A stretch of DNA of 64,000 nucleotides from Colwellia sp. PAMC 21821 (GTDB lineage Bacteria > Pseudomonadota > Gammaproteobacteria > Enterobacterales > Alteromonadaceae): NCBI RefSeq assembly GCF_002077175.1, contig NZ_CP014943.1, positions 4,278,001 through 4,342,000 of the forward strand. Direction: 5' to 3'. The stretch's first letter is position 1. Each line of letters opens with the position of its first letter. The notes beneath the pieces are model-generated. The model saw nothing but the letters and a program-made list of their open reading frames with translations, did not search any database and was not told the origin of the DNA. Shown here piece by piece: positions 30,804 through 46,903 of this stretch. The position numbers and the translations under genes were made by a program.

Positions 30804-30830
30804 AAATATAAACATCATATGTTTATATTT
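30804..30830. promoter_or_regulatory. Operator palindrome in the SDR / MFS divergent region
   Basis: The core is AAACAT-CAT-ATGTTT (30810-30824). The arms extend perfectly to 12 bp (AAATATAAACAT and its complement) around a CAT spacer. It lies about 105 bases from both start codons, almost exactly central, so one bound dimer could control both directions. Proposed site for the GntR protein encoded at 35694. Confidence 0.7.
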
Positions 30831-30928
30831 ATTGTATCTTTGTGCTTTCGATGCTAAATTTCTAATATTAACGAGTCAAAAAATAACTTCAAAGTTAAAT
30901 AATTATAATTACAGGTAAAGGTAAAAAG

Positions 30929-32494
30929 ATGTCATTAATCGATAAGAACGTCGCTTTTTATTCACTCATTGCCGCTTTTGGTGGCTTTGTTTTTGGTTTA
31001 GATGCCGCTAACATTTCTGGTGCAATTCGTTTTATTAGCTCTCAATTTGAGTTAACGAGCTCTCAAACGGGTACCGTAGCAGGTATCGCTTTGATCGGGG
31101 TTATTTGTGCTTTATTTATTACTGGCCCTTTATGTGAACGTTTTGGTCGTAAAAAAGTATTGCTTGCTATAGCGCTAGCATATTCTGTTTCTACTATTTT
31201 ATCGTCAACCGCTGTGAGCTACGAAATGCTTGTTATTGGGCGTTTTATTGGTGGTGTTGCTTTCGCATCGATTACGGTTTCAGCCATGTATATAGGCGAA
31301 ATTGCTCCGGCAGACAAACGCGGTAAGTTTGTATCCACTAATCAATTAATGATCGCAGTAGGTTTATTGCTAGCTTTTGTTATTAATTATTTTTTAATTA
31401 AAATGATGGATGATATTAGCTGGATAAATAATGAAAATGTTTGGCGTTATATGTTGGGCGCTGAACTCATTGCTAATGTAATTTGGGTTTCACTACTACT
31501 TTGTATTCCTGAGTCTCCTCGTTGGTTAATAATAAAAGGGCGTAATGAAGAAGCAAAAGCTATTTTGGCAAAAATATCGTTAGATGCTGACATTGAGCCA
31601 ACCATAGCTGAAGTTACAGCAAGTATAAATCTTGATAAGAAAAATTCTATTTTAGATCAACTTAAAACACTTTTTAGTATAAGAATGAGATTCGTACTTT
31701 TTCTTGCCGTAGTTTATGCGGTAGTACAGGGCGCAACCGGTATGAATGCTGTGTTGTTTTTTGCTCCGTTAGTTTTTGAGCAAGTAGGTATGAGTGTTCA
31801 AGATACTTTTATGCAAACCATCATCATGGGGCTTATTGGTGTTATTTCTACCATTATTGCGATACTTTTTGTTGAAAAATTAGGCCGCCGCTTCCTAACG
31901 CTTGGTGGCTTGTTACTTGTTGTTATTGCACATAGTTCCACGTGGTATGGCTTTAGCCAGGTCACTTATGAATTCGACGATGCTACTATGGCGAAAATAA
32001 CGCAGCAACTTGCACCAGACAATATCGATACGGCCAGATTACAACCCTTGTCAGGTAAAGTTTTTAGTAGCGACGTTGATTTAAAAGCACAATTAGCTGA
32101 AATATTTGATAACAAAGAATTACCCTTAGTCAGTGGTGTGGTAATCAATGCCAGTATTAACGGCATAAATGCAGCTATGGTTTTGTTTGGAATATTTGCC
32201 TTTTTAGCAGCGTTTAATTTATCTATTGGGCCTATTCTTTGGGTAATATTCTCTGAAGTATTCCCAAACAATGTTCGAAGTGTCGCTTTACCTTTTGCTG
32301 CCTTAGTGCAAACGATTGCTTCTTGGTCAGTCAGTGAGTTTTTCCCGTGGCAATTAGAGCACTTAGGTGTGTCTAATATCTTCCTTATTTATGCTGGTAT
32401 TGGCTTAATTGGCTTAGTGTTGATGAGCTTTATATTGCCAGAAACAAAAGGTAAGACGATTGAAGCCATTGAAAAAGAATTAGTGCGTAGTTAA
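30929..32494 (+). CDS. MFS sugar porter (SP family), galactose or anhydrogalactose uptake
   Basis: Inner-membrane transporter of 521 residues with twelve predicted membrane helices. Sugar-porter signatures are present: GFVFGLDAANISGA in helix 1, ERFGRKK between helices 2 and 3, GRFIGGVAFA in helix 4, PESPRWLI before the central loop, EKLGRR in the second half and PETKGKTIEAIE at the end of helix 12. A ~75-residue extra loop (about 345-420) between helices 9 and 10 is notable. It probably carries galactose or 3,6-anhydrogalactose by proton symport. It is first in an operon with dgoK, dgoA and the dehydratase (44-base gap), behind the operator at 30810. Specificity cannot be read from sequence. 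Confidence 0.88.
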   Translation: MSLIDKNVAFYSLIAAFGGFVFGLDAANISGAIRFISSQFELTSSQTGTVAGIALIGVICALFITGPLCERFGRKKVLLAIALAYSVSTILSSTAVSYEMLVIGRFIGGVAFASITVSAMYIGEIAPADKRGKFVSTNQLMIAVGLLLAFVINYFLIKMMDDISWINNENVWRYMLGAELIANVIWVSLLLCIPESPRWLIIKGRNEEAKAILAKISLDADIEPTIAEVTASINLDKKNSILDQLKTLFSIRMRFVLFLAVVYAVVQGATGMNAVLFFAPLVFEQVGMSVQDTFMQTIIMGLIGVISTIIAILFVEKLGRRFLTLGGLLLVVIAHSSTWYGFSQVTYEFDDATMAKITQQLAPDNIDTARLQPLSGKVFSSDVDLKAQLAEIFDNKELPLVSGVVINASINGINAAMVLFGIFAFLAAFNLSIGPILWVIFSEVFPNNVRSVALPFAALVQTIASWSVSEFFPWQLEHLGVSNIFLIYAGIGLIGLVLMSFILPETKGKTIEAIEKELVRS

Positions 32495-32537
32495 TAAACT
32501 TCAGAAATTAATTGAATAAATACATAGAGCGAAAGAA

Positions 32538-33455
32538 ATGAATAAAAACTTATTATCGAAAGGTTATCTAATTGTCGATTGGGGAACAACTAACTTCCGC
32601 GTATTTTTGATGAATAAGCAGGGCGAGTTGGTAAAAAACAAAGAACTTGGCCTTGGTTTGTTACAGGTAAAAGATAATGATTTTGCCAATGCGCTTGAGG
32701 GGGTTTTATCTCAATGGTTAGACAACTATAAATCTCTTCCAATTATCATGGCCGGTATGGTCGGCTCGATGCAAGGTTGGTTTAACGTCGACTATGTGGA
32801 AACAGATGTAGATACAAACTTACTCGCTCAAAACTCATATCGATTCGAACTTCCTTGGGGAGCTCAAGCGATAATTATTCCAGGTGTTATGCATAAGTTA
32901 TCTGCAGATCGCTTTGATGTTATGCGTGGTGAAGAAGTACAGATTTTTGGCGCAGCCAAATTAATCAATAAACGGTTATTCAGTGTTGTATTACCGGGTA
33001 CGCATAGTAAACATGTGCGGGTAGTCAATGGCAAAATAACCGAAGTTTTATCATTTATGACAGGGGAGCTATTTTCGGTAATAACTGAACATACCATCCT
33101 AGGCAAAGGTTTACCTGAACAAAAATATAATCCAGAAGTTTTTTTACTTGGCGTAAAAGAAAGTAAATCAGCTAAATTAACCAATGTTCTTTTTGCTGCT
33201 CGAACCCACCGACTTTTTAAAAATATTGATGATAGTGATGTACATAGCTATATATCAGGACTACTAATTGGACATGAATTACATAGTCTAAGTGGTGGGC
33301 ATATTTATATCGTCGGTGGCGAGAGTTTATGTGAAAAATATAAGCTTGCATGTAGCGCATTAACTATTGCTTTTACCTACGTAAATGGCGACGAGTGCTT
33401 TCTTGCAGGCATGACAGATTTAATCAAGGTGTTACATCAAAATGAAAAAATTTAA
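32538..33455 (+). CDS. dgoK: 2-dehydro-3-deoxygalactonokinase
   Basis: Cytoplasmic kinase of 305 residues that phosphorylates 2-keto-3-deoxygalactonate at C6. VDWGTTNFR (residues 13-21) is the phosphate-binding loop of the DgoK family, MAGMVGSMQGW (71-81) and LPGTHSKHV (about 154-162) are family signatures, and MTGELFSV follows. GHELHSLSGG and IVGGESLCEKY form the C-terminal nucleotide-binding part. Its end overlaps dgoA by 14 bases, so the two are coupled. It is the step where the galactose and anhydrogalactose branches meet. Length is close to that of the E. coli enzyme, and no motif is missing. Confidence 0.92.
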   Translation: MNKNLLSKGYLIVDWGTTNFRVFLMNKQGELVKNKELGLGLLQVKDNDFANALEGVLSQWLDNYKSLPIIMAGMVGSMQGWFNVDYVETDVDTNLLAQNSYRFELPWGAQAIIIPGVMHKLSADRFDVMRGEEVQIFGAAKLINKRLFSVVLPGTHSKHVRVVNGKITEVLSFMTGELFSVITEHTILGKGLPEQKYNPEVFLLGVKESKSAKLTNVLFAARTHRLFKNIDDSDVHSYISGLLIGHELHSLSGGHIYIVGGESLCEKYKLACSALTIAFTYVNGDECFLAGMTDLIKVLHQNEKI

Positions 33456-34089
33456 TATAAAAAAACAATTCCCATTAATCGCTATCATTCGTGGTGTACT
33501 GCCAGAAGATGTTGTTCGTATTGCTCACATATTAATTGATGAAGGCTTTACGATGGTTGAGGTGCCACTGAACAGTCCTGATGCGCTTAATAGTATTAAG
33601 CGTTTAGTAGATGAGTTTATAACCGACAAAAATACGCAATATTATGTTGGTGCTGGTACAGTTACTACTGCGCAAAAAGCGAAAGATGTTATTGCAACAG
33701 GTGCAAACTTAATGGTTACACCTAATATGAATAAAGAGGTTATTAAACTTTCTGTTGCAGCGGGCTGTGCAACTTTTCCAGGTATTGTAACGCCAACTGA
33801 AGCATTTGATGCGCTAGAAGCAGGCGCAACAGGCATTAAAATATTCCCTGTTTCTGCCTTAGGTTTAGATGGCTTTAAAGCCTTAAACTCTGTGTTGCCA
33901 AAAGGTACTTTATGTTTTCCTGTCGGTGGCATTGATCCAACCGTTGAAAGCATGAAACCATACATAGATTTAGGTGCACAAGGATTTGGTTTAGGTTCTG
34001 CTTTATATAAACCAACCATGTCTGATGATGAAATTCGTAAGTCAGCTAAAGCATTTTTTGCTACATTTAACACGCTTGTAAACGCATAA
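33442..34089 (+). CDS. dgoA: 2-dehydro-3-deoxy-6-phosphogalactonate aldolase
   Basis: Class I aldolase of 215 residues in the KDPG/KDPGal family that splits 2-keto-3-deoxy-6-phosphogalactonate to pyruvate and glyceraldehyde 3-phosphate. E40 in VEVPLNSP is the catalytic acid-base, K133 in GIKIFP forms the Schiff base, and GAGTV, VTPN and FPVGGI line the phosphate and substrate sites. The VPLNSP sequence is typical of the galacto-enzyme. ATG 33442 lies inside the end of dgoK, indicating translational coupling. It feeds central metabolism and closes the pathway. The KDPG (Eda) alternative is less likely given the neighbours. Confidence 0.93.
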   Translation: MKKFNIKKQFPLIAIIRGVLPEDVVRIAHILIDEGFTMVEVPLNSPDALNSIKRLVDEFITDKNTQYYVGAGTVTTAQKAKDVIATGANLMVTPNMNKEVIKLSVAAGCATFPGIVTPTEAFDALEAGATGIKIFPVSALGLDGFKALNSVLPKGTLCFPVGGIDPTVESMKPYIDLGAQGFGLGSALYKPTMSDDEIRKSAKAFFATFNTLVNA

Positions 34090-34170
34090 ATTAAGCGTTG
34101 TAGACCTTAATTTAATCTTTTTTCAAGATAAATTTAAGTGTTTCACCTGTTTTTTATAAAGGTATAAAAT

Positions 34171-35340
34171 ATGAAAATTACCGCTATTAGGCCTTATGTA
34201 ATATGGGTTGGTACTCGCAATCAACTGATTGTAAAAGTGGAAACTGATGAAGGGTTATACGGTTGGGGCGAAGCTGGTTTTTCATTTCGTGAACAAGCCG
34301 TAGCTATGATGATAGAGCACTTCTCAAAGTTTATTATCGGTCAAGATCCGATGAATATCGGTCGTATTTGGCAAGAATGTTATCGTAGCCATTACTTTGA
34401 AGGTGGTCGAGTTGTTACCGCAGCAATGGCTGCAATAGATATCGCGCTACATGACATTAAAGGCAAAGCCCTTGGTGTTCCTGTTTATCAACTTATTGGT
34501 GGTAAACAACGTGATGTAGTGCCAGCTTTTGCAACTGTGCCGGCAGAGCCCGGTGAATTAATGATTGAACAAGCACTTCAACTTAAAGCAATGGGCTGGA
34601 AATGTATTCGTTTTATTGCTGATGGTATGGGGGCTGCTTACTCTTCATCTGGAGTTGCGCGTTTTGAACCTCGAGAGTCTATCAATAATACCGTACCTTG
34701 GCTGATAAAAGCTCGTGAAGCTTTAGGTCACGACGTGGTAATTGGATTAGAGTTTCATCACAGATTAAGTATTGGAGAAGCGGCTTCATTGTGTCAAAAA
34801 ATACCGTCGGGCACTTTAGACTTTTTAGAAGAGCCTATTCGTGATGAAACCCCTGAAGCTTATGAAACCTTAAGAAAATTAACCAATATTCCTTTTGCCA
34901 TTGGCGAAGAGTTTTCTTCAAAATGGCAATTTATGCCTTATATTGAACGCGAGTTAATGCAATATAATCGTTTAGATATTTGTAATGTTGGTGGCTTTAC
35001 TGAAGCACTTAAAGTAGCAGGCTGGTCTGAAGCACATTATATTGATTTAGTAATGCACAACCCATTAGGGCCAATTTGTACGGCTGCTTCAATTCATTTA
35101 GCTGCTGCGGTGCCTAACTTTAGTTGGTTAGAATGTCGTTCTTCACCTTTTGAGCAATTGGGTTTTGATAACCCTGAACTCTTTCCTGTGCAGGCAACTA
35201 TGGATGGAGCTAACTTTGTTATTCCAGAATTGCCTGGTTTAGGGGTAGAAGTAAATGAAGAGAAGATTGCTGAACAAAGTGCCACTTTCACCGAAGCGCC
35301 TCATCTGACAAGAGACGACGGCAGTGTAACGAATTGGTAA
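34171..35340 (+). CDS. Galactonate dehydratase-like enolase superfamily enzyme
   Basis: Mandelate-racemase-subgroup enzyme of 389 residues, most like D-galactonate dehydratase (DgoD), which makes 2-keto-3-deoxygalactonate. Seen are GWGEAG, the helix AAIDIALHDIKGKALGVPV, H196 in FHHR, E220 in FLEEP, E246 in GEEF and H296 in HNPLGPI, matching the DgoD His-His catalytic pair. The first metal ligand, Asp in E. coli DgoD (VDFHGR), is E194 here (LEFHHR), a conservative but unusual change. It is last in the MFS-dgoK-dgoA operon (81-base gap) and followed by a terminator. Function as galactonate dehydratase is likely; a related sugar-acid substrate is possible. Confidence 0.82.
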   Translation: MKITAIRPYVIWVGTRNQLIVKVETDEGLYGWGEAGFSFREQAVAMMIEHFSKFIIGQDPMNIGRIWQECYRSHYFEGGRVVTAAMAAIDIALHDIKGKALGVPVYQLIGGKQRDVVPAFATVPAEPGELMIEQALQLKAMGWKCIRFIADGMGAAYSSSGVARFEPRESINNTVPWLIKAREALGHDVVIGLEFHHRLSIGEAASLCQKIPSGTLDFLEEPIRDETPEAYETLRKLTNIPFAIGEEFSSKWQFMPYIERELMQYNRLDICNVGGFTEALKVAGWSEAHYIDLVMHNPLGPICTAASIHLAAAVPNFSWLECRSSPFEQLGFDNPELFPVQATMDGANFVIPELPGLGVEVNEEKIAEQSATFTEAPHLTRDDGSVTNW

Positions 35341-35345
35341 TATTG

Positions 35346-35389
35346 GTAATAGCGATATAAAAGAAGGTAATGCTATTACTTTCTTTTTG
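35346..35389 (+). terminator. Terminator of the MFS-dgo operon
   Basis: GTAATAGC (35346-35353) pairs with GCTATTAC (35372-35379), followed by TTTCTTTTT. It begins five bases after the dehydratase stop codon. Confidence 0.7.
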
Positions 35390-35664
35390 TATTGCATAAG
35401 ATCAAGCTGATTAATTAGCTGCTTATTTTTAAGAGTTAACATGAATAATTACCGCGCTATAAAATTTAAAAGTAGCGTAACTACTGACTAAACTTTACGC
35501 TTTATAGTTATACATTTTTACTCATGAAAAAGTAGACCGGCTAATTAATCAAATTTGTACGAAAAACCAACTTATTTTGCTGATTAAGGTAATTAATAAG
35601 GACTTAACATTGTGTTTTTTCAATGTTTAACGTAAAATTTTAATAACCTTCCTATTATTTTTAT

Positions 35665-35679
35665 AAACGTATAACGTTT
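35665..35679. promoter_or_regulatory. Autoregulatory operator of the GntR gene
   Basis: AAACGT-ATA-ACGTTT is a perfect 6-bp palindrome with a three-base spacer, fitting the same consensus AAACRTNNNAYGTTT as the other four sites. It contains GTNNNAC, the core common to FadR-type GntR operators. It ends 14 bases before the start codon, a position suited to self-repression. Confidence 0.65.
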
Positions 35680-35693
35680 GTGTACCTATTATT

Positions 35694-36434
35694 ATGAGTG
35701 AATTAGTTTATTACGATTTAAAGCGCGCCGCGACTATGACGCCAAGTATGCCAATACAGGTAGCTCGTGAGTTGGGTCGAAGAATTGTCGCTGGAACAAT
35801 AGAAGAAGGCACGTTAATTGATGACGAAGCTTCTTTAACCGAGCGCTATCAAGTAAGTCGTGTTGTCATTAGAGACGCGGTAAAAATACTGGTAGGAAAA
35901 GGGTTGTTGGATGTTCGTCGTGGTATAGGCACCCGTGTTAAACCTCGCAGTCAATGGGTGCTTTGGGATGACGATGTACTTGCATGGCATGTTAGTGCTC
36001 CACCAAATAAAGATTTTATACGACAGCTGATGGATATTCGCTTAGCGTTTGAACCTAAAGCTGCTCGCTGGGCTGCAGAAAGAGCAACCCCAGAAGCCTT
36101 GGCTGAAATTGAATCAGCGTGCATAGGTATGGAGCTAGAAAAAGGTTCAGTTGAAAAGTTTATTATTGCTGATGCCTTATTTCACCGTTCTGTATTAAGG
36201 GCGGCTCGTAACGATTATTTAACTGCAATGGAAGGCGTTATTTACTCAGCATTACTTATAAGTGTGCAATTAACAAATAAAGATCCACGAACAAACAGCT
36301 CTTCTGTTTCTTTTCATCGAGAAGTGTATCAAGCAATTGCTGATAAAAACGGCGCCCTTGCAGAGCAGTTAACAGAGAAGTTATTAAACGATGCAATAAG
36401 ACGTTTAAAAGAAGCATTTGGTAACGATTATTAA
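35694..36434 (+). CDS. GntR/FadR-family regulator, DgoR-like
   Basis: A 246-residue transcription factor. The N-terminal winged helix (residues ~20-85) contains LTERYQVSRVVIRDAVKILV, the recognition region, followed by GIGTRV in the wing. The C-terminal FCD domain has DIRLAFEPKAARWAAERAT, DALFHR and HREVYQAI, which supply the Asp and His residues that bind metal and effector. The layout and several phrases (for example ARWAAERAT) resemble E. coli DgoR, which responds to galactonate. It sits directly after the dgo operon, with a palindrome 14 bases ahead of its start. I infer a repressor released by galactonate or a related acid, controlling the sites at 30.8, 41.1, 41.2 and 46.8 kb. Confidence 0.87.
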   Translation: MSELVYYDLKRAATMTPSMPIQVARELGRRIVAGTIEEGTLIDDEASLTERYQVSRVVIRDAVKILVGKGLLDVRRGIGTRVKPRSQWVLWDDDVLAWHVSAPPNKDFIRQLMDIRLAFEPKAARWAAERATPEALAEIESACIGMELEKGSVEKFIIADALFHRSVLRAARNDYLTAMEGVIYSALLISVQLTNKDPRTNSSSVSFHREVYQAIADKNGALAEQLTEKLLNDAIRRLKEAFGNDY

Positions 36435-36456
36435 ATAATAATTTACTTTGTTCATG

Positions 36457-36503
36457 ACCCAAACTACTTTCAAATTAATTTGTCAGTTTGAAGTTGTTTG
36501 GGT
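36457..36503 (+). terminator. Hairpin between convergent GntR and halogenase-like genes
   Basis: ACCCAAAC plus ACTTTCAAA (from 36457) pairs with TTTGAAGT plus TTTGGGT (to 36503) with a small bulge, giving a stem of about 16 bp. Placed between two converging genes, it may stop transcription from both sides. Confidence 0.65.
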
Positions 36504-36571: not shown

Positions 36572-38083
36572 TTATTCTTTCGCGGCTATTAACCTGTTTA
36601 TAAATTCATCATGAGTTAATGTTTTAGCAACATTGTTCGATAGGGCTGAAATACTTTGTCTAAATGCTTGTTCAATTTGATTAAAACTCGAAGCATCTAT
36701 AAGAGGATCATAACTATTTGGTCTCACACCCATACCTTCTAAAACTGAATACCAACTATCAGCTGAGAATAAATCATACTGATTTTCGTATAACTTTCCT
36801 TGGCATGTAAATAATTCAATTTTTGTCTGTAGTGTTTTTGGGATCTCTAAATGCTGCCACATTTGCCAAAAGGGCGAATCTGTTCGTTTTGTCGTGCAAT
36901 AATGTAAAACAATAAAGTCTCTAATCGCGATGTATTCATCATCTATTAATCGATTAAATTCATCTATAGGCGCCTGATATAGTTTTTTATTAGGCATGTT
37001 TTGAACAAAATTAAGCATGGTTTTCATGATCAGATAAATGCTTGTAGACTCTAAAGGCTCAAGAAACCCAGAAGACAATCCTACCGCCAAACAGTTTTTA
37101 TACCAAATTTTATCACGTTTTCCTGTGGTAAAAGACAGGAACCGTGGTTCAGTTATAAAGGGCGCACTATTGCTTTTCAGTAAAGCTAACGCAGCATCGT
37201 CGCTACAATAATCACTGCAATAAACATAACCATTTCCAATTCTATTTTGCAGTGGTATTTTCCAGCGCCAACCGTGTTCATGTGCCGTGGCTTGGGTATA
37301 AGGCGGAGTAGGGTGTTCAATAGCTGTTTGAGCCGTTACGGCTTTATTTACCGGTAAATAATGCTGCCAGTTTTCATAACCAACACGAAGTGCTTTATGC
37401 ATTATTAACGCTTGTTGCCCGCTACAATCAATAAAAAAGTCTCCTGATATGGCTTGACCATCAGCTAATATAAGTTTATCAACTTGGCCATTTTCATTAA
37501 GATTTGTTGCTTGGATATGGCCTTTGATTAAATTAACCCCTTTATTTTTACAGTAATCTGCTAAATATTTTGCGACTAAGGAAGCGTCAAAATGTAGCGC
37601 ATAAGTTGATGATGAAAGATTGTTTTTTACCTTGGGGTCAGGGATATAAAATTTGTTTTGTTTTGCCAAAGCTATTGCAGGGGAAAAATCGGTAAACTCA
37701 AACTGTGGGTTTTCAAATTGATGTTTTAGCCAATGTTGATAGAAAAGTTTTCCTTCAATTTTGTTGCCAACAAAACCAAAAGGATGCCAGTAATGATGAC
37801 CTTTTTCTTTCCAATCAATAAACTTAATACCTAATTTAAAAGTAGAGTTAGTCGCTAAAATAAACTCTTTTAGAGGGATGCGAAGATATTCTAGCAAATC
37901 TACAATAGAAGGAATGGTTGCTTCACCAACACCTATTGTGGGTACATGGGGTGATTCAACCACGGTGATTTTTACATCGGTATTTGTTAATGCTCTTGCT
38001 AATACTGCCGCTGAAATCCAACCAGCAGTGCCACCACCAACAACAACATATGATTTAATCTGTTCAGTTTTTACTTTGTCCAT
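36572..38083 (-). CDS. Tryptophan-halogenase-like flavoprotein
   Basis: A 503-residue member of the flavin-dependent halogenase family. VVGGGTAGW (residues 14-22) is the FAD-binding glycine motif, and GWRWKIP contains the WxWxIP signature of halogenases. GVGEATIP and TFKLGIKFIDW are family segments, with K83 a candidate for the catalytic lysine. CLAVGLSSGFLEPLEST is the second flavin region. It has no signal peptide. Homologues often sit beside TonB receptors in marine and freshwater polysaccharide loci; their substrate there is unknown, and tryptophan chlorination should not be assumed. It follows the TonB receptor gene on the minus strand, separated by a hairpin. Confidence 0.85.
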   Translation of the reverse strand: MDKVKTEQIKSYVVVGGGTAGWISAAVLARALTNTDVKITVVESPHVPTIGVGEATIPSIVDLLEYLRIPLKEFILATNSTFKLGIKFIDWKEKGHHYWHPFGFVGNKIEGKLFYQHWLKHQFENPQFEFTDFSPAIALAKQNKFYIPDPKVKNNLSSSTYALHFDASLVAKYLADYCKNKGVNLIKGHIQATNLNENGQVDKLILADGQAISGDFFIDCSGQQALIMHKALRVGYENWQHYLPVNKAVTAQTAIEHPTPPYTQATAHEHGWRWKIPLQNRIGNGYVYCSDYCSDDAALALLKSNSAPFITEPRFLSFTTGKRDKIWYKNCLAVGLSSGFLEPLESTSIYLIMKTMLNFVQNMPNKKLYQAPIDEFNRLIDDEYIAIRDFIVLHYCTTKRTDSPFWQMWQHLEIPKTLQTKIELFTCQGKLYENQYDLFSADSWYSVLEGMGVRPNSYDPLIDASSFNQIEQAFRQSISALSNNVAKTLTHDEFINRLIAAKE

Positions 38084-38213: not shown

Positions 38214-41033
38214 TTAAAATCTAGCTGTAATACCCACTTGGTATCGTCTGCCAGAATATTCAAGCTTTGTTACACGTTCTCTAACATCAGCATATTCTAA
38301 AATATTAGCGTTAGTGGCGTTAACTACTTCTGCAGAAATTGTTAAATTTTCATTAATATCATAAGAAGTACTTAGATCAAGTTGACCATAATCATCAACA
38401 TGTTGAGGTAAGCCGTTGCTGCCTATTCTTGGTCCTGAACGATACTCTAAAAACCCTTCACGCCAGTTATATGCCGCTCGAGCTTGAAAGCCATCGATTT
38501 CGTAAAATGCAATAACATTGTATGAATTTTCAGAGAACCCTTCTAAGCCACTACCAGGTGATTGAACATTTGGGCGTTCAAACTCACTTGCATCATCATC
38601 TTTACTATCTGTGAAGGTATAGTTAGCTTGCATACCAAAGCCACTGAGCCAGCCAGGTAAGTAGTCAAAATAATGAAGGGCTGCTATTTCAAAGCCGCTA
38701 ACTGTTCCGCCACTACGATTAGACTTTTGAGTGATGGCTTCAAACACAGGGCCCCAACCGTCTATATTTAAGCCCGTATCAACACTGGTTGTTTGAGTAG
38801 AAATGAAACTGGTAATATCTTTATAGAATAAACCTAATGAATAGGCGTTACCTGACTCATCATAATATTCAAATGAGGTATCAAACTGTTTTGCTTCATA
38901 AGGTTGTAAATAAGGATTACCACCACTGGTGGCTAAATCACCTGCACGGGGGTTTTGTTGATAACTTTTATTAACGCCAGTATCTTCAAGTGCGGGTCTA
39001 GATATTACTTTTGCTGCCGCTGCTTTAATAAAAAAGCCTTCGCCAAAATCCATGTTAACGTTAAAGCTTGGTAACCATTTTTGATAATCAGACGCGACTT
39101 CTATAACAGCAGGCTCTGAATAGGTGGCTTCTAGCGCTAAACCACCGCCATCTTGTACGGGTTTCTCTATTAACGCCAAACGTTCGATGCTGTGGCCTGA
39201 TGAAGCAACCTGTGTATCTACATATCGTAAACCTACATTGCCGCTCCAAGAAAAAACATCTAATTCACCCATTAAATTGACTTGGGCATAAGCGGCAAAA
39301 ATTTCTTCAGTATTTTTTACTGAACTCTCAGGTCGTAATACTTCGTCAGTCCAATTGGGTTCGCCGCGAATATTACCTATTGCCGCTTTATAATCGTTAA
39401 TATCATTAATTAAAACAAATTCTCGAGGAAAATTACCACTGACTTCACTTAGGAAACTGCTGTTGTTATTAATAGAGAATAAACTATCATCAAGATCTAA
39501 GAAGTTACCACACGTATTTACTACGCTACCACAACCATCTACACCAAATGATTTTTGAGATTTTTCTCTGTCAGTATAGGAAAATCCAAAATCAACAGAA
39601 CTAATGAAACCGTCATCTACATCGTAGTTTGTGTCAAATTTCACCTCTAAAATTTCATCTTCAATTTCTTGATGTTGTATATCATTCCAGTGGGTACGAA
39701 CTGAAGCAGGATCAGCGTAATCAATACTAGAATCTATTTGAATGACATCGCCGTTACTGCTGTCAAATTCAATATAATCTTGACCAACAATTAACCCATT
39801 TTGTTGGTCTGGCAAATAACCAGGGTCACCGGGTTTTACACTTTGATCAACATTGTTATTAACAAAGTTTGTCACTAGCGTGTTACCGCGTGGGTCAGCT
39901 GTTGCTTTTGAATAAGAGATGTCGGTGGCGAATGTCCATTTATCGACTAAATATATGCTATTAAGGCCTAAAGCTATTGTTTCTGAATCTTGTCCACGCT
40001 CCTGAAATAAACCGTCAATAGGGCTTGCTGATTTAGTCGCTTTGATTGCCGTCATGTTTTCTGAAACGATAACATCTTGCCAACCAGAAAAGTGTAGAGG
40101 AACTTGCATACCATTACTTAATGCTTGTCGACTTAAGTCGGAATATAAAACATCAAAGGTATGTGTAATATCATCATTTTGTGCCCACTGTAAGGTTAAG
40201 TTCGCACTTGTACGTTCGCGCTCTTCAGTGTCCATGGTATATGTAGCACGGCCAGGGTACCAAACTGTACCTTCTGTAACGGCATTGCCGGCTTCATCAG
40301 TAATTGGACCTGGTGCTACCGTTGTATTATCTGCTTGGAATGATGACCAATGAGTTGTACCAGCAGCATCAATTCTGTTAGTTGTTTTTTGTTTTGCAAA
40401 ACCGAGTAAAACACCAAAGCTATCGTCTAAAAAGGTATTACTGATAATAACAGAGCCTTTAGGATCGTATTCTTCAGCGAGGTCGTTATATACAAAATCA
40501 AATGAGCCAACGGCTTGTAAACCGGGGCTATTGAGAGGGCGAGCAGTATTTACGTTAATATAAGCACCTAAACTGCCTTCAGCAATATTCGCTCTCGATG
40601 CTTTAATTACATCGGCACCAGAAATTAGATCAGATGGTAGGGTTTGAAAATCAAACTCTCGACCAAAATCTGTTGTGGCTATTGTTCTGTTGTTTACTTT
40701 TACAGCATTAAATTTTGGTCCCATACCTCGAACGGTAACTTTAGAGCCTTCACCGTTATTACGAGATATCATTACACCACTGATCCGCTGTAAAGACTCG
40801 GCTACGTTTTGATCAGGAAATTTACCAATGTCTTCAGCAACAATACTATCTTGGATAGAGGATGCATTTTTTTTCTTATCCATCGACTCGGTTAAACTGC
40901 TACGAATCCCTGTAACGCTAATAACTTCTATAGCTCCATCTTTTTGCTCTTGGGCAATGGTAACGTTAGAACTGAGTGCTGCGGTAATCGCAATACCGAG
41001 TGGCAATAATCTAAATTTATTTGGTTGTTTCAT
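38214..41033 (-). CDS. TonB-dependent receptor (oligosaccharide uptake)
   Basis: Outer-membrane active transporter of 939 residues. After a signal peptide ending near TIAQ comes a TonB-box-like segment (IEVISVTGIR), then the plug (VAEDIGKFPDQNVAESLQRI, GVMISRNNGEGSKVTVRGMG) and a C-terminal 22-strand barrel ending in the aromatic GRRYQVGITARF. The form matches the receptor class common in sugar-scavenging marine bacteria (TonB-Xanth-Caul type). ATG 41033 has AAGGAAG upstream. It diverges from a GH16 gene across a 284-base region with two operator palindromes, so import of the GH16 products is the natural inference. The ligand is not determined. Confidence 0.9.
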   Translation of the reverse strand: MKQPNKFRLLPLGIAITAALSSNVTIAQEQKDGAIEVISVTGIRSSLTESMDKKKNASSIQDSIVAEDIGKFPDQNVAESLQRISGVMISRNNGEGSKVTVRGMGPKFNAVKVNNRTIATTDFGREFDFQTLPSDLISGADVIKASRANIAEGSLGAYINVNTARPLNSPGLQAVGSFDFVYNDLAEEYDPKGSVIISNTFLDDSFGVLLGFAKQKTTNRIDAAGTTHWSSFQADNTTVAPGPITDEAGNAVTEGTVWYPGRATYTMDTEERERTSANLTLQWAQNDDITHTFDVLYSDLSRQALSNGMQVPLHFSGWQDVIVSENMTAIKATKSASPIDGLFQERGQDSETIALGLNSIYLVDKWTFATDISYSKATADPRGNTLVTNFVNNNVDQSVKPGDPGYLPDQQNGLIVGQDYIEFDSSNGDVIQIDSSIDYADPASVRTHWNDIQHQEIEDEILEVKFDTNYDVDDGFISSVDFGFSYTDREKSQKSFGVDGCGSVVNTCGNFLDLDDSLFSINNNSSFLSEVSGNFPREFVLINDINDYKAAIGNIRGEPNWTDEVLRPESSVKNTEEIFAAYAQVNLMGELDVFSWSGNVGLRYVDTQVASSGHSIERLALIEKPVQDGGGLALEATYSEPAVIEVASDYQKWLPSFNVNMDFGEGFFIKAAAAKVISRPALEDTGVNKSYQQNPRAGDLATSGGNPYLQPYEAKQFDTSFEYYDESGNAYSLGLFYKDITSFISTQTTSVDTGLNIDGWGPVFEAITQKSNRSGGTVSGFEIAALHYFDYLPGWLSGFGMQANYTFTDSKDDDASEFERPNVQSPGSGLEGFSENSYNVIAFYEIDGFQARAAYNWREGFLEYRSGPRIGSNGLPQHVDDYGQLDLSTSYDINENLTISAEVVNATNANILEYADVRERVTKLEYSGRRYQVGITARF

Positions 41034-41080: not shown

Positions 41081-41095
41081 AAACATATGATGTAT
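41081..41095. promoter_or_regulatory. Operator palindrome near the TonB receptor start
   Basis: AAACAT-ATG-ATGTAT matches the consensus AAACRTNNNAYGTTT at all but one defined position. It is 47 bases upstream of the receptor start on the minus strand, where it could overlap the promoter. Confidence 0.6.
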
Positions 41096-41194: not shown

Positions 41195-41224
41195 TTGCAT
41201 GTCAAAACATCATATGTTTATATA
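41195..41224 (+). promoter_or_regulatory. GH16 promoter with operator inside the spacer
   Basis: TTGCAT (41195-41200) and TATATA (41219-41224) fit -35 and -10 boxes 18 bases apart. The palindrome AAACAT-CAT-ATGTTT (41205-41219) fills the spacer, a classic repressor position. The GH16 start codon is 94 bases further on. Confidence 0.6.
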
Positions 41225-41317
41225 TGTACTACATAAATTATTGTTTTATGAATAAGTGCCGAGTTCATTGGACGATTCAACATAAAACGACAAAGTACCG
41301 TTTGGGGGCGTGAATAC

Positions 41318-42415
41318 ATGAAGAATTTTATATTTAGTGGCAGTTTACCTTTACTTGCTATTTCTGCACTGGCACTTGCTGGATGTAGTGAAACAATATC
41401 TACAGACAAATCATCGACAGAAAAAGCACTAGAAACAATTGAAGTTAAACAATCTGATAATTTTTTACCTTTGTCAGATCCTCAAAATAAAGCGGGTTGG
41501 ACTTTAAATAAAGAAGTTAGCGATGAGTTTGATAGTAAATCGTTAGATGAAGATAAGTGGTATATTGTCGGTAAGCTTGATGAGAATGGCAAGCCTATAT
41601 ATAAAGATCCTGATCACCCAGAACGTGAAGTATGGATTGGCCGTGCACCCGCACAGTTTTCTGGACGTAATGTACGATTAGAAGATGGTATGTTAAAAAT
41701 ATCTACCCGTTGGGAACCTGATTTTCCTTTTGAAACGGCGCAAGGGATAGATAACGTAAAATACAAATACGAAAACTTTACCACGGCAGCAATTATCAAC
41801 CGTAAACTATTTCGTTACGGCTATATAGAAGTGAGTGCAAAAGCCGCTGATGCTGAAGTATCGAGTGCGTTATGGTTTACCCGCCATGAAGAAAAAAATG
41901 GCCAGCGTAACGATACGTCATTAGAACTTGATGTTTTTGAGCATTTCGGTAGTCACCGTTTACCAGGCAAAAGTCATCGTGACCGTGATCTTTGGTGGAC
42001 GGTTCATGATTGGGATCCAAAATATGGTCATGAAAATGGCAAGAACGTAACTTACACCGAAACAAAAGACTTAGGCTTTAGAGTTGCAGAAACATTCCAC
42101 ACTTATGGTTTTGAATGGTCAGAAACAGGACTTCGTTATTTTGTTGATGGCAAATTGTTTTCTGATGTGTCTATTGCTGATGTAGAAGCCTTTGCTAAAA
42201 CAAAAGGCCGTGATAAAGGTTGGGTAATTGATAAAGCTATGCACCTTTGGTTAGATTCAGAATCTTTCCCTTGGAGAGGCTTCCCTGATTCTAAAGAAGA
42301 TTTAGAAGCTAACAGTCCTGAGGGCGAAAAAGACGACGGTATTGTCGACTTTGAAATTGAATACTTAAGAGTTTGGCAAAAACCTGAGCACATGACTTAT
42401 AAAGTAGATCACTAA
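41318..42415 (+). CDS. GH16 endo-galactanase lipoprotein (carrageenase/porphyranase/agarase type)
   Basis: A 365-residue lipoprotein with perfect lipobox LAGC23. The GH16 jelly-roll follows from residue ~60. E203-L-D-V-F-E208 is the catalytic motif (nucleophile E203, acid-base E208, D205 assisting). WIGRAPAQF, RYGYIEV, ALWFTR and DFEIEYLRVWQKP are family landmarks shared with the GH16 at 57678. The enzyme would cleave a beta-1,4-galactan internally, releasing oligosaccharides at the cell surface. It differs from the kappa-carrageenase at 56620; the WxGRAPxQF element recalls the porphyranase or beta-carrageenase branches, so specificity is uncertain. It diverges from the TonB receptor and is followed by a terminator. 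Confidence 0.87.
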   Translation: MKNFIFSGSLPLLAISALALAGCSETISTDKSSTEKALETIEVKQSDNFLPLSDPQNKAGWTLNKEVSDEFDSKSLDEDKWYIVGKLDENGKPIYKDPDHPEREVWIGRAPAQFSGRNVRLEDGMLKISTRWEPDFPFETAQGIDNVKYKYENFTTAAIINRKLFRYGYIEVSAKAADAEVSSALWFTRHEEKNGQRNDTSLELDVFEHFGSHRLPGKSHRDRDLWWTVHDWDPKYGHENGKNVTYTETKDLGFRVAETFHTYGFEWSETGLRYFVDGKLFSDVSIADVEAFAKTKGRDKGWVIDKAMHLWLDSESFPWRGFPDSKEDLEANSPEGEKDDGIVDFEIEYLRVWQKPEHMTYKVDH

Positions 42416-42492
42416 ATAATTATCGCTAGCAGTATTTGCTGTAAACATAAGTAGTTAACATCATTAGAAAACACGAGTATCAATGACTCATT

Positions 42493-42533
42493 AAAATTGT
42501 ATCAATCCTATTGTTTGGGGTTGATACAATTTT
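42493..42533 (+). terminator. Terminator after GH16
   Basis: AAAATTGTATCAA (42493-42505) and TTGATACAATTTT (42521-42533) are perfect 13-bp arms. The built-in A and T runs make it a bidirectional-looking terminator 78 bases after the stop codon. Confidence 0.7.
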
Positions 42534-42673
42534 AGACCTTATGTTTAAGCGTTATATTTAGGCCTTATCTTTAGACATAATATATTTATTTGTATTCGTG
42601 TATTAATTTTGGCCATCCACGTTATGTTTTAGATTAACAATGCCAACAGCTCAACAAAATATTTGAGGTGAAA

Positions 42674-44290
42674 ATGAACTTTTCTCTAAAAAAACTCCTT
42701 TCTACACAAGGTTTCTCTAACGAGTTAACCAAATCAATAAAAACCGTTAATTTAACTTTTGCTAAGAAAGCTAACCTGCTTGCTTTAACCGCCAGTTTTT
42801 CTGTGCTATTTACTTCTCTGTCAGCCTATAGTGACCAAGCTACTGATAAAGCATTAAATACTAAAGAGAATGTGCTTGTTATTATGTTTGACGACATGCG
42901 TTTTGATACGTTTTCATACCGTGGTGGTCCAGTTAATACGCCTAATATTGACGCGTTAGCAAATCAGTCAGTTCGGTTTGATAATGCCATGACAACAACA
43001 GGACTTTGTTCGCCTTCTAGAGCGGCTATGTTTACGGGTCGTTGGGGACACAAAACAGGTTTAGACGATAATGTTGAACTTTATCATTCACGCTTATCCG
43101 AACTCGATCAAAAAGAGGGCGGCATAATGCGCAAAGCATCAGAAGCTGGTTACTTAGTCGGTTATGTTGGTAAATGGCATTTAGGGGCTCAGGGCACTAA
43201 ATTACGTGGTGCTGAAATAGATTTAGGTCAAGGTCACGAACCTCGCGAACGCTTCACTCGCCCTTGGACTCCATATGAAAAAGTACCACAAGTTAAAGGT
43301 TATTATGAGGGTAAGTTAGACGCTAATGACGAAAAGCATGAATACTTTATGACTTTGCCTGGCGGATATGAAGATACTCAAGCCTATAGCAAAGTTGTTT
43401 ATGGTAAAAACATGATAAAACAGGCGGCCAAAGACAAGCGGCCATTTTTTGGCGTGGTGAGTTTCAACCAACCGCATCCTGCTTATCGTGTGCCTGAGCC
43501 TTACGCCAGTATGTTTGACCCTATGGCCCTTAAATTACCCAAAAATCATTTAATAGAGCGGGTAAATAAACCCCTGGCGCAAGATGGAATATGGTGGCCA
43601 TGGCATGATGTAGGCCATATGTCTGATTTAGATTGGCGTAGATCTCGTGCGTTTTATTATGGCGCTATCGCCATGGTTGACCGTATTGTAGGTGACTTAA
43701 TTCAAACCGCAAAAGATGAAGGCATGTATGATGACCTAACGATTCTTTTGGTCGGTGACCAAGGCAGCATGCTAGGTGAACATGGCCTTTATGACAAAGG
43801 ACCTTATGCTTATGACGAATTAATGCGTATGCCGCTACTGATCCGCACACCAGCACTTGCGCCGAAAATCGTTAATCGACAAGTATCTATTATTGATATT
43901 GCCCCAACCTTAACTGAAATTATGGGACTAAAGGCTGATGAAGATATAGATGGTCGTACTTTACTACCGCTAATGACAAAAGGTGATGTCGCTGATAAGG
44001 GTAAAGTAGACTCTGCGCTTTATGCTTATGAATGGTACAACGGTTCTTGGTTCGGTATTAGAGCAATTAGAACGCCAGAAATGAAGTTTGTTTGGAATCC
44101 AGGCGATACCCGAGATGAGTTTTATGATCTTGTTAAAGACCCGATTGAAAAAGACAATCAAATTAACAATAAGTTATACCGTAAAAAATTAAAAACGATG
44201 GTTGCACTATTAGAACAAGAATTAGTAAGAGTTAGCGACCCATCTGTTGAGCGTTTTCGACACCACATGAACGCCCGTGGATTACTTTAG
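42674..44290 (+). CDS. S1-family sulfatase
   Basis: A 538-residue sulfatase. MFDDMRFDTF (residues 71-80) gives metal ligands, C112-S-P-S-R116 with AAMFTGR is the canonical formylglycine site, GKWHLG follows near 160, and VGDQGSMLGEHGLYDKG holds the later metal site and a lysine typical of sulfate binding. GAGG at 42665-42668 is five bases from ATG 42674, which I prefer over GTG 42668. The N-terminus has an unusually long polar region before the hydrophobic stretch (residues ~34-50), suggesting a long signal peptide ending near LSAYS. It lies between GH16 and another sulfatase. The sulfate position attacked is not predictable here. Confidence 0.9.
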   Translation: MNFSLKKLLSTQGFSNELTKSIKTVNLTFAKKANLLALTASFSVLFTSLSAYSDQATDKALNTKENVLVIMFDDMRFDTFSYRGGPVNTPNIDALANQSVRFDNAMTTTGLCSPSRAAMFTGRWGHKTGLDDNVELYHSRLSELDQKEGGIMRKASEAGYLVGYVGKWHLGAQGTKLRGAEIDLGQGHEPRERFTRPWTPYEKVPQVKGYYEGKLDANDEKHEYFMTLPGGYEDTQAYSKVVYGKNMIKQAAKDKRPFFGVVSFNQPHPAYRVPEPYASMFDPMALKLPKNHLIERVNKPLAQDGIWWPWHDVGHMSDLDWRRSRAFYYGAIAMVDRIVGDLIQTAKDEGMYDDLTILLVGDQGSMLGEHGLYDKGPYAYDELMRMPLLIRTPALAPKIVNRQVSIIDIAPTLTEIMGLKADEDIDGRTLLPLMTKGDVADKGKVDSALYAYEWYNGSWFGIRAIRTPEMKFVWNPGDTRDEFYDLVKDPIEKDNQINNKLYRKKLKTMVALLEQELVRVSDPSVERFRHHMNARGLL

Positions 44291-44350
44291 TTCTCGCGAT
44301 TATACACAATTAATATGTAGTTTTTATGCAGGAATGTTTAAGGAAAAATA

Positions 44351-45841
44351 ATGAAAAGTAATATATCACTCAGTAAGATAGTTTTAGCGTGTTTTTGTGT
44401 CATTGCCAGTCAAGCATCGTATGCAGCTGAAGACTCACTCAACACAACTGAGAATAAAAGGCCCAATATTTTGGTTATTTTAACCGATGATATGGGCTAT
44501 GCCGATGTTGGTTTTAATGGTTCAACTGATATTAAAACGCCAAGTTTAGATCAGTTAGCAGCAGAAGGCGTGGTATTAACCTCTGCCTATAACGCACACC
44601 CATTTTGTGGACCTAGTCGTGCGGGCATTATGACAGGTCGATACCCACATAAATTTGGATCGCAATTTAACTTACCAACAAGTAATCGTTCAGGCGGTTT
44701 AGGTGTACCAACAGAAGAAGTTTTTATCAGCAAAGTATTACAAGATGCGGGTTATAAAACGGGTGCTATTGGTAAATGGCATTTAGGCGAAGAAGCTGAG
44801 TTTCATCCGAATAACCGTGGCTTTGATGACTTTTATGGCTTTTTAAATGGTGGGCATGATTATTTCCCATCGAAATATAAACCTCAATATGAACGTCAGC
44901 GTAAGCAAGGTTTAAATCATAGTATCTTTCATTATCTCAGACCCCTTGAGCATAACGGCAAAGAAGTTGATGAAAAAGAATACGTAACCGATGGTTTATC
45001 ACGAGAAGCGGTCAATTTTATTGAAAAATCAGCTACCAATAAAGACCAGCCTTTCTTTTTATACATGTCTTACAATGCGCCGCATTCACCGATGCAAGCT
45101 AAAGAAGAAGACATGGCAGAGTTTCCAGAAATAAAAGACCAGAAACGAAAAATCTATGCAGGTATGGTTTATGCTGTCGACCGTGGTGTTAATAACATTG
45201 TAAAAGCGCTTAAAGCAACAGGTCAATACGACAACACGTTAATTGTATTTTTTAGTGACAATGGCGGTAAGCCAAATCTTGGTGCCAATAACTCTCCATT
45301 AAGAGGGCGTAAAGGTAGCGTATTAGAAGGGGGATACAGAACGCCAATGTTTTTCCATTGGCCTAAAAACGTTCCTGAAGGAAAAACCTTTAGTTACCCA
45401 ATATCTACTTTAGATTTATACCCAACATTTGCAAAGCTTGCTGGCGCTAAAATACCGGATAATAAAAAGTTAGACGGAAAAGATGTTATGCACGATTTAA
45501 TTGCAGGTTCTAATCCTAGACCAGGTGAAATGATCTACGCAGTGAGACATAGAAAAGGCTTTTCAGAAGCTGCTGCTCGCAGAGACAATTGGAAAATTGT
45601 TAATACAGGTAAAGAATGGCAACTGTTTGATGTAGATAAAGACAAAAGTGAAAGTAATGATGTGAGTAGCAAACATCCGTTCATTGTTAGAGAAATGATC
45701 GCTGAAATGGAAGTTTGGAGTTGGACCAATCCACAACCTTTATGGTTTCATCATCATGAAGAAGGCACTATGTGGAGAGAAATGGGTATGCCAAGGTTTC
45801 ATGAAACTTTTAATTTAAAAGGTGATGAAAAAGCGCATTAA
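44351..45841 (+). CDS. S1-family sulfatase (S1_19-like)
   Basis: A 496-residue secreted sulfatase with a signal peptide ending near ASYAA. LTDDMGYADVGFNG gives the metal ligands, and C86-G-P-S-R90 followed by AGIMTGRYP is the formylglycine site. GKWHLG and NNSPLRGRKGSVLEGG follow in order. The CGPSR plus AGIMTGRYPHKFG pattern is shared with the sulfatase at 49490 and recalls subfamily S1_19, members of which remove 4-O-sulfate from carrageenan; this assignment is from memory of motifs. AAGGA lies about nine bases before the ATG. It is 60 bases after the preceding sulfatase and ends before a strong terminator, so the pair probably forms one transcript. Confidence 0.9.
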   Translation: MKSNISLSKIVLACFCVIASQASYAAEDSLNTTENKRPNILVILTDDMGYADVGFNGSTDIKTPSLDQLAAEGVVLTSAYNAHPFCGPSRAGIMTGRYPHKFGSQFNLPTSNRSGGLGVPTEEVFISKVLQDAGYKTGAIGKWHLGEEAEFHPNNRGFDDFYGFLNGGHDYFPSKYKPQYERQRKQGLNHSIFHYLRPLEHNGKEVDEKEYVTDGLSREAVNFIEKSATNKDQPFFLYMSYNAPHSPMQAKEEDMAEFPEIKDQKRKIYAGMVYAVDRGVNNIVKALKATGQYDNTLIVFFSDNGGKPNLGANNSPLRGRKGSVLEGGYRTPMFFHWPKNVPEGKTFSYPISTLDLYPTFAKLAGAKIPDNKKLDGKDVMHDLIAGSNPRPGEMIYAVRHRKGFSEAAARRDNWKIVNTGKEWQLFDVDKDKSESNDVSSKHPFIVREMIAEMEVWSWTNPQPLWFHHHEEGTMWREMGMPRFHETFNLKGDEKAH

Positions 45842-45883
45842 CTCTTTGAGAAATTAACTTGAGAGCTATATAGCAATGAGTAG

Positions 45884-45926
45884 CTTACAGTTGCCTGATT
45901 AAATCAGGTAACTGTAAGATTTTTTA
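45884..45926 (+). terminator. Strong terminator after the sulfatase pair
   Basis: A stem of about 17 bp (CTTACAGTTGCCTGATT with its near-perfect complement ending CTGTAAG at 45918, one G-T pair) is followed by TTTTTT. It closes the sulfatase transcript. Confidence 0.85.
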
Positions 45927-45961
45927 AGTAAATAATTCTTTTGTATATATGAGGCAAAGAG

Positions 45962-46504
45962 ATGAGTGTTATAAAACCGCTACTATTGTTCACTATGGTT
46001 GCACTTTCAGCATGCGCCTATCAACCAACCCCTTATAAAGTTGTACAACAAGAAAAATATGAGCAAGGAGCTTTAGCCGGTTTATATCAGTTAGGTGTTA
46101 CAGAAGAGCGTATTAGTCAAAGCGAATATGTTATTACCGTTAAACTCGACGGAGGTAGTGACCCACAAAGAGCAAGAAACATGTTAATGCTACATGCATC
46201 TAAATTAGCGTTAACCAGCGGTTATAAACATTTTAAAAAGAGTCAGCTAAAAGCTGGTAGTTGGTGTAACAAAAGTCGTAATAAGGTAACAAACAAAATT
46301 TCTTTTGCAGAAGGTGGGCCTTCAGCAAAAGCAAAAGTCTCCTTTGTTCATGCCAATGAATCAAATTTCAAAAAGAATAAAACACATTTCAATGCCGAAA
46401 AACTTATTGAAAGACTAGAGCCCATTGTTAATAAGGTTATCACTCAAGAAGTGGCTGACTCTAATGCCAATAAACGCATGCGAATTTGCTGGAATAAAAG
46501 GTAA
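45962..46504 (+). CDS. Small lipoprotein, CC0125/CC1285-like
   Basis: A 180-residue lipoprotein with lipobox LSAC18. The segment GLYQLGVTEERISQSEYVIT and the later RARNMLMLHASKLALTSGY follow the pattern of the CC0125/CC1285 lipoprotein family, whose role is unknown. It has no catalytic motif. It lies between a strong terminator and a long intergenic region, so it is probably transcribed alone. A good ribosome site (GAGGCAAAG) precedes ATG 45962. Any part in carrageenan use is unproven. Confidence 0.7.
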   Translation: MSVIKPLLLFTMVALSACAYQPTPYKVVQQEKYEQGALAGLYQLGVTEERISQSEYVITVKLDGGSDPQRARNMLMLHASKLALTSGYKHFKKSQLKAGSWCNKSRNKVTNKISFAEGGPSAKAKVSFVHANESNFKKNKTHFNAEKLIERLEPIVNKVITQEVADSNANKRMRICWNKR

Positions 46505-46903
46505 TAGCTCAGAATCTAAGGCTTCTCATAACTCAATACATTATCTATCTATCAATCTATCTAACGTTACGTACATCGTCTAAAAAGCATAAAACTTATG
46601 CAAACCAATGTTTTACCTTCTCGCCTTAAACGTTATCATTATAACTACTCAATAGTAGAAATATTCTTTTTTTAGCTGATAAATAATTATTTCATCATAA
46701 TAATTGTTGATATTTATAGAGTTAAAACTTTTTTAATTAAATGTTGGTCAATTTTTAATATATTTTGTTGTAAATCGAAACATCATATGTTTAACTATGT
46801 ATTACTTTTACAAATATAATTTATGTGGCTGAGTTAATTTGTGTTGTGTTAATACAATTAAACTAACTATTTCCCATTGGCCAAACAAGCAGGTTAAAGA
46901 CAA
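46505..46903. other. Intergenic region before the cycloisomerase operon
   Basis: A 399-base AT-rich gap. It has a short run of TCTA-type repeats near 46542-46562 and the operator palindrome at 46778-46792. No gene is seen. Confidence 0.6.
46778..46792. promoter_or_regulatory. Operator palindrome of the cycloisomerase operon
   Basis: AAACAT-CAT-ATGTTT, identical to the cores at 30810 and 41205, lies 111 bases upstream of the cycloisomerase start codon. TTGTTG at 46765-46770 just before it is a possible -35 box. Confidence 0.65.

Follow-up and report, generated by a model that had tools for sequence, protein, structure and literature searches.

How marine Gammaproteobacteria switch on the digestion of carrageenan is unexplained in the available text of the literature that we consulted, and the genome of Colwellia sp. 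PAMC 21821 (a single contig of 4.88 Mb, NZ_CP014943.1) raises this question in a concrete form. The whole stretch of DNA analysed here, 64,000 nucleotides from positions 4,278,001 to 4,342,000 and hereafter called the window, holds a red-algal galactan cluster spanning 29923-63487, with GH16 enzymes, sulfatases and two TonB-dependent receptors, and among its genes lie five matching palindromes. Carrageenan clusters of Colwellia echini and Pseudoalteromonas are known to be induced (available text of PMC6952198 and PMC6923384), and the latter source, as far as available, describes the way in which oligosaccharides regulate the Pseudoalteromonas pathway as unknown. Which protein, then, reads the palindromes? 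An initial annotation had assigned all five to a single DgoR-like repressor of the GntR family. Our reading, to which we give a probability of about 0.88, is that the GntR/FCD protein encoded at 35694-36434 uses them as its operators; it would repress the cluster promoters as a dimer and be released by a sugar acid of the pathway. The sites and their proposed reader are as follows.

30810..30824: putative operator AAACATCATATGTTT, between the divergent SDR and MFS genes (104 bp to the MFS start, 107 bp to the SDR start)
35665..35679: putative operator AAACGTATAACGTTT, with atypical CGT half-sites, 14 bp upstream of the GntR start
41081..41095: putative operator with one mismatch, ATACATCATATGTTT on the - strand (AAACATATGATGTAT as matched to the pattern), 47 bp upstream of the TonB-dependent receptor gene TBDR1
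41205..41219: putative operator AAACATCATATGTTT, 98 bp upstream of a GH16 gene
46778..46792: putative operator AAACATCATATGTTT, 111 bp upstream of dauB
35694..36434, + strand: GntR/FadR-subfamily (FCD) regulator of 246 amino acids, proposed reader of the five sites (PF00392 + PF07729)

We found that the five palindromes are present as the initial annotation had described them, four exactly and one (41081) with a single change, and that each stands in the promoter region of a catabolic, uptake or regulator gene of the carrageenan/anhydrogalactose cluster, 14-111 bp from the start; AAACATCATATGTTT is letter-identical at three of the five. Without mismatch, AAACRTNNNAYGTTT occurs four times in the window (30810, 35665, 41205 and 46778), compared with a mean of 0.09 and a maximum of 1 in 100 dinucleotide shuffles, none of which gave four. 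When one mismatch was allowed there were six sites, a number reached in three of the 100 shuffles; those added were 41081 and, in the left part of the window, 13457 (AAAGGTACTATGTTT), so the claim that no site lies outside the right block holds for exact sites and fails for this one. At two mismatches AAACATNNNATGTTT does not discriminate, as 20 matches are seen in the window against a shuffle mean of 12.9 and 5 of 100 shuffles reach 20. The two-mismatch motif was dropped as a source of extra window sites, the counts not being clearly above those of shuffles, and AGACATAATATATTT at 42573, upstream of the first sulfatase, is a weak candidate only for which we claim no site.

The scan of the genome and its relatives that had been proposed along with the palindromes bore them out. 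The Colwellia genome has nine sites, four of them in this cluster, while the reversed control pattern gave four; for at least four sites to fall in a 16-kb stretch, given five background sites, the Poisson p is 3e-9. Three of the five background sites are inside mechanically called open reading frames (ORFs) (L121, with an ORF of 130 amino acids, L122, and L124, where the ORF is a GH43 gene), and the other two are intergenic, one next to an EF-G-like gene (L120) and one next to an IS110-type transposase (L123). A search for the regulator in GTDB species genomes yielded 35 loci, in which sites were sought with the pattern AAACRTN3AYGTTT, where A or G is allowed by selection. These loci hold 104 sites, 96 of them outside mechanical ORFs, and the nearest downstream genes, counted on either strand, are homologs of the MFS porter (23), GntR (22), sulfatase-1 (19) and dauB (11), followed by receptors, SDR and GH16; 39 have no homolog in the window set. 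C. echini has 11 such sites in its mapped 100-kb stretch, all outside mechanical ORFs, and the site between SDR and MFS recurs there and in L054-L057. Sites are kept in loci of 53-62% G+C, such as L077, L071 and L082. A half-site test was made on the 31 loci left after removing the overlapping or near-duplicate L063, L064, L079 and L081: AAACAT with a 3-bp spacer gave 81 sites in 29 of the 31, and the remaining 29 arrangements of these letters gave two at most each.

Since the search that gave the 35 loci started from the regulator, scans of whole genomes test the link more fairly. We drew 395 family genomes evenly out of a larger group and called a regulator ortholog, at E <= 1e-60, in 28 of them. 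The exact 15-mer AAACATCATATGTTT was found in 30 genomes, namely all 28 that are GntR-positive and two of the 367 that are GntR-negative (G094 and G096), in which the copies are inside mechanical ORFs. Fisher's test gives p = 7e-41 for this co-occurrence, a value that has to be discounted, which counts against our reading: with related genomes, among which the cluster is passed on as one block, p-values overstate independence. In nine of the 28, picked by us, AAACATN3ATGTTT occurs 64 times, and 53 of these sites lie within 100 kb of GntR on the same contig; the reversed control pattern occurs 8 times in total. It can be seen that all sites are near GntR in G077 (C. echini, 11/11, all in one 90-kb stretch), G157 (5/5), G404 (7/7) and G242 (6/6), and most in G295 (9/10) and G177 (6/7), with lower fractions in the window's own genome (3/6), G085 (3/5) and G339 (3/7). 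One further site in G339 is upstream of dauB, 192 kb from GntR, and G088 and G093 have sites upstream of GH16 or TonB receptor homologs elsewhere in the genome; for G088, two of the four unlinked exact sites were looked at. The idea of a local galactan regulon needs amending on two counts, the cluster being of carrageenan type and the sites of some relatives lying partly outside the locality. Thirty DauB matches were retrieved, 27 of them from GntR-positive genomes, and 14 have an exact site upstream.

Five discordant genomes separate the regulator from its targets. G091, G125 and G212 encode DauB at 71-73% identity and have no GntR ortholog; the exact 15-mer is absent from all three in the whole-genome scan, the 19-kb stretches around dauB (L133-L135) hold no AAACATN3ATGTTT site with up to one mismatch, and the 500 bp upstream of dauB hold none with up to two. 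In G093 and G360, GntR and the 15-mer are present while DauB is missing at the cut-off; of the four sites in these two genomes, the three that we looked at, among them one of the two in G360, each precede a TonB receptor or GH16 homolog. The dau enzyme set of G404 is a different one (its DauB is 38% identical), and still each of the seven exact sites precedes a cluster gene. The five discordant genomes led us to reject DauB as the partner that the motif follows. Beside dauA-dauB in L134 (7038-7730) and L135 (12405-13091) we observed a distant GntR-family gene, at 32-33 bits against the window protein and with FCD by Pfam for L134, which is apparently a natural replacement of the regulator. Within the window, no other recognised transcription factor was found among the ORFs of at least 150 amino acids scanned from 29923 to 63487.

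A search of a plasmid collection with the regulator protein returned four records, none of which had been used to define the motif. The P. carrageenovora plasmid has five exact sites in 40.7 kb, outside annotated genes, and the Roseibium, Sulfitobacter and Paracoccus plasmids have one each, in the gap upstream of the regulator gene, in stretches of about 30.7 kb with 55-60% G+C and different gene content. Plasmids with a site before GntR come from another gammaproteobacterial family and from Alphaproteobacteria. We also located 47 distinct regulator starts by their N-terminal codons and looked for a site within 80 bp upstream: 17 have an exact site, 29 one with up to one mismatch and 40 one with up to two, the last figure comparing with 22 of 1050 windows picked at random in these loci. 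We conclude that the comparison of genomes strongly supports one GntR/FCD regulator for all five sites, because the motif co-occurs with the regulator, is placed at the regulator's own gene and is absent where the regulator is missing, and because no other recognised regulator was found among the ORFs scanned.

The gap between operator and start is exactly 11 bp in 12 of the 29 upstream sites with up to one mismatch, for example in L145 (14975-14989), L144 (19975-19989) and L055 (9975-9989), and this spacing, found from Colwellia through the alphaproteobacterium Roseibium, leaves nearly no leader space. Two tandem copies of the regulator are seen in L144 (20001-21541), in L149/L150 (G404, 54504-56044) and in G089, G226 and G408; in the whole-genome cases they are 60-75% identical to the window protein.

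Both domains of the regulator scored above cut-off (GntR winged helix PF00392, 41.5 bits; FCD PF07729, 81 bits), and the best match in the PDB was 7c7e, E. coli DgoR (6e-30, 107.5 bits; the next match had 56.4). The two proteins share 34% identity over 215 residues, the same two domains, the metal D/H/H and two pocket arginines, and in both cases kinase, aldolase and galactonate-dehydratase-like genes are adjacent, as in dgoRKADT. The operators are unlike: AAACAT-N3-ATGTTT here (core ACAT-N3-ATGT), and TTGTAGTACAA-type repeats (TTGT-N3-ACAA) in the dgo promoter. No AAACATN3ATGTTT site with up to two mismatches was found in 10 kb around E. coli dgo, and TTGTN3ACAA occurs three times in the window against a shuffle mean of 3.1, none of them at these promoters. 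The GT-N3-AC core that had been offered as evidence for a FadR-type operator does not carry the case, as it is found only at the atypical 35665 among the five sites; at the subfamily's G position the collected sites have A in 95% and G in 5%, having been selected with A or G allowed. The operator change has a counterpart in the recognition helix, which reads SRVV here and SRNI in DgoR. In an alignment of 55 rows, in which the window protein may be counted twice, Val-Val stands where DgoR has Asn-Ile in 52, and two more rows have Ile or Ala before the second Val. The general helix arginines are retained in orthologs, and Asn is found in 38 of 55 rows (Ala in the window protein) at the position that we take to be Arg35 in FadR numbering. 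If the GntR protein is the reader, helix and operator would be expected to change together, as they do here; this is a correlation only.

The ligand pocket is partly that of DgoR (pocket and metal residues from the available text of PMC7674646). Six of 11 DgoR pocket residues are kept in the window protein (R102, D146, H150, D184, H195 and R224) and five are changed (Q173, R179, W181, T191 and S221). Across the alignment the equivalents of R102, D146 and H150 are present in 55 of 55 rows, H195 in 54 and R224 in 51, and the metal-binding residues of the FCD domain are likewise conserved (D160 and H164 in 55 of 55, H208 in 54). The description 'DgoR-like' therefore suits the domains and part of the pocket and does not extend to the operator, W181 or Q173. 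From the operator and pocket comparisons, we would call the regulator a relative of DgoR rather than DgoR proper, one that probably works like it. Its predicted reach also differs, as it would act on several promoters, those of polysaccharide enzymes, receptors and sulfatases, whereas DgoR controls one operon.

The mechanism that we propose is that a GntR dimer binds AAACAT-N3-ATGTTT at the cluster promoters and represses the operon for anhydrogalactose/galactonate uptake and breakdown, the dauB-dauA operon, the genes for the TonB receptor, GH16 and the sulfatases, and gntR itself. Carrageenan breakdown products would enter the cell, a pathway sugar acid would bind in the metal-containing C-terminal pocket, and the DNA would be released; candidate inducers are 2-keto-3-deoxy-D-galactonate, 3,6-anhydro-D-galactonate and D-galactonate. 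The motif, its placement and its tie to the regulator come from comparison of sequences, whereas direct binding, the dimer, repression over activation and the inducer class are extrapolated from DgoR and the FadR subfamily. Repression is preferred because D-galactonate releases the repressor DgoR (available text of PMC12288454), the closest relative whose structure has been solved, and because a site lies beside the regulator's own start. As the metal residues, R102 and R224 are kept but W181 and Q173 are changed, the inducer is likely to be a sugar acid related to D-galactonate. In C. echini, genes of the carrageenan cluster, including all four dau genes, rise on kappa-carrageenan (PMC6952198, as available), and for the unrelated system of Zobellia the available text of PMC5698469 suggests 3,6-anhydro-D-galactose itself as effector.

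The protein might instead bind and activate, or be a dual regulator, with the sites at about 100 bp as activator positions and the near-start site serving autorepression. Such an arrangement could be read from the distances, which are 98-111 bp to the MFS, GH16 and dauB starts against 14 bp to GntR, and in P. carrageenovora 75-161 bp before targets against 11 bp before GntR; the spacing fits repression equally, so it decides nothing, and with the precedent of DgoR on the other side we regard activation as unlikely. An explanation in which a different transcription factor reads the sites, GntR co-occurring by block inheritance of the cluster, would draw on the facts that genes and regulator do travel as blocks, that an AraC-family gene is present in the P. 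carrageenovora cluster as well and that GT/AC cores are normal for FadR-subfamily operators. The window has no second recognised regulator in the range scanned, in the five discordant genomes it is GntR, rather than DauB, that the motif tracks, and the sole exact site in each of the three alphaproteobacterial stretches is the one before GntR, and we consider a different reader very improbable. That the palindromes reflect chance or the composition of AT-rich intergenic DNA finds some echo in the two-mismatch counts, which barely exceed those of shuffles, and is refuted already by conservation across genomes; with the shuffle, genome-wide, half-site and 100-kb proximity counts and the persistence of sites at 53-62% G+C, we give it practically no credence.

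Several further observations weigh against operators read by this GntR/FCD repressor. Two of the 35 loci, both long (L074 and L076), have no exact site, seven of the 47 GntR upstream regions have no good site, and the exact site is absent from the upstream stretch in 13 of the 27 DauB matches of GntR-positive genomes. Outside the 100-kb zone lie three of six sites in the own genome and four of seven in G339. Of the discordant genomes, G091, G125 and G212 come from a single genus, and the assemblies of G093 and G360 are drafts that may simply lack dauB. W181 and Q173 of DgoR are T and L in the window protein. Sigma-70 promoter prediction, which we set aside as uninformative, gave 52 promoter-like sites in the window and 55 in shuffles. 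Finally, the operator deviates from the FadR-subfamily consensus of TKGT/ACMA boxes around 2-3 nt (Suvorova 2015, PMC4494728, as far as available).

What emerges is a predicted FadR-subfamily regulon with a non-canonical operator, wider than the local set first envisaged and with a named substrate class. We would go further, at about even odds, and propose that a DgoR-related lineage switched to a new operator code, ACAT-N3-ATGT via the Val-Val helix, and that regulator and operator travel as a cassette together with red-algal anhydrogalactose/carrageenan genes, carried by chromosomes as well as plasmids, between gammaproteobacterial families and as far as the Alphaproteobacteria; with its own operator often 11 bp before the start, the regulator may act on a nearly leaderless promoter or on ribosome access. 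A tree of 32 regulators was excluded from the evidence, as DgoR, L017 and L134 form long branches and deep placement is unsafe. One operator with near genome-wide specificity makes the regulon readable from the genome and points to a sensor that responds to a sugar of red algae, and a FadR-subfamily regulator with a predicted consensus-breaking operator is useful for the protein-DNA code.

The operator is undescribed in the literature searched, as far as its text was available; RegPrecise and most subscription journals were outside that scope, and an earlier prediction is possible. The closest orthologs of the regulator are in Colwellia and Pseudocolwellia. C. echini A3T has an orthologous cluster with a regulator 93% identical, for which joint induction by kappa-carrageenan is reported, while the words 'GntR' and 'promoter' are absent from the main text of PMC6952198 as available. 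The GntR gene of the P. carrageenovora carrageenan cluster is a 'Galactonate operon transcriptional repressor' in Gobet et al. 2018 (PMC6262041), the available text of which names it only, describing no operator, regulon or inducer; a protein 65.6% identical to the window regulator is encoded on plasmid pKCTC22325 of this species. CgrA of Zobellia galactanivorans also controls carrageenan genes; unlike the present regulator, it is of the AraC family, in another phylum, and acts by positive control (PMC5698469, as available).

The remaining genes of the cluster are given below; Dau names are putative, assigned from homology and from published descriptions of the gene set (available text of PMC6262041 and PMC6952198).

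29923..30702, - strand: SDR oxidoreductase (domain/profile match)
30929..32494, + strand: MFS sugar porter (TIGR00879, above cut-off)
32538..33455, + strand: 2-keto-3-deoxygalactonate kinase, DauC/DgoK-type (PF05035)
33442..34089, + strand: 2-keto-3-deoxy-6-phosphogalactonate aldolase, DauD/DgoA-type (NF006600, above cut-off)
34171..35340, + strand: galactonate-dehydratase-like enolase-superfamily enzyme (NF010624, 263.5 bits, below the cut-off of 311)
36572..38083, - strand: tryptophan-halogenase-family flavoprotein (PF04820)
38214..41033, - strand: TonB-dependent receptor TBDR1 (TIGR01782)
41318..42415, + strand: GH16 glycoside hydrolase (PF00722)
42668-44290 and 44351-45841, + strand: two sulfatases (PF00884)
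46904..48055, + strand: enolase-superfamily enzyme, putative DauB-type anhydrogalactonate cycloisomerase (PF13378/PF02746)
48052..49488, + strand: aldehyde dehydrogenase, putatively DauA-type (PF00171)
49481..50944, + strand: sulfatase (PF00884)
51028..54687, + strand: TonB-dependent receptor TBDR2 (TIGR01782)
56620..57582, + strand: kappa-carrageenase-like GH16 (NF041449, 341.1 bits, just below the cut-off of 350)

This last enzyme matches the kappa-carrageenase 1dyp in the PDB at 6e-65, and the window DauB is 88% identical to the G077 (C. echini) protein. The cluster, of carrageenan type with anhydrogalactose uptake and breakdown, is probably used for digesting red-seaweed carrageenan.

In the divergent region between the TonB receptor and GH16 genes, 124 bp separate the sites at 41081 and 41205, and L056 has two sites 114 bp apart in the equivalent region; DNA looping between 41081 and 41205 is possible. 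Upstream of more distant paralogs of the regulator (30-36% identity), no shared palindrome was common to more than three of 21 loci. One locus in the own genome (190000-199000; L127, 4574-8722) has a second GntR, 32% identical, with homologs of SDR, a sugar-acid kinase and an aldolase, and is probably a galactose/galactonate operon. ATACATAAAATGTTT lies immediately upstream of its SDR gene; we do not claim cross-control through it, a similar ACAT-N3-ATGT core being found in L006 (G008, which has no GntR ortholog). The tryptophan-halogenase-family gene at 36572-38083 adjoins TBDR1. FG-GAP/UnbV-ASPIC (CRTAC1-like) proteins are encoded on both flanks of the cluster (window 27814-29724; L126, 2325-4211), and a CRTAC1 protein is present in the P. 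carrageenovora cluster too.

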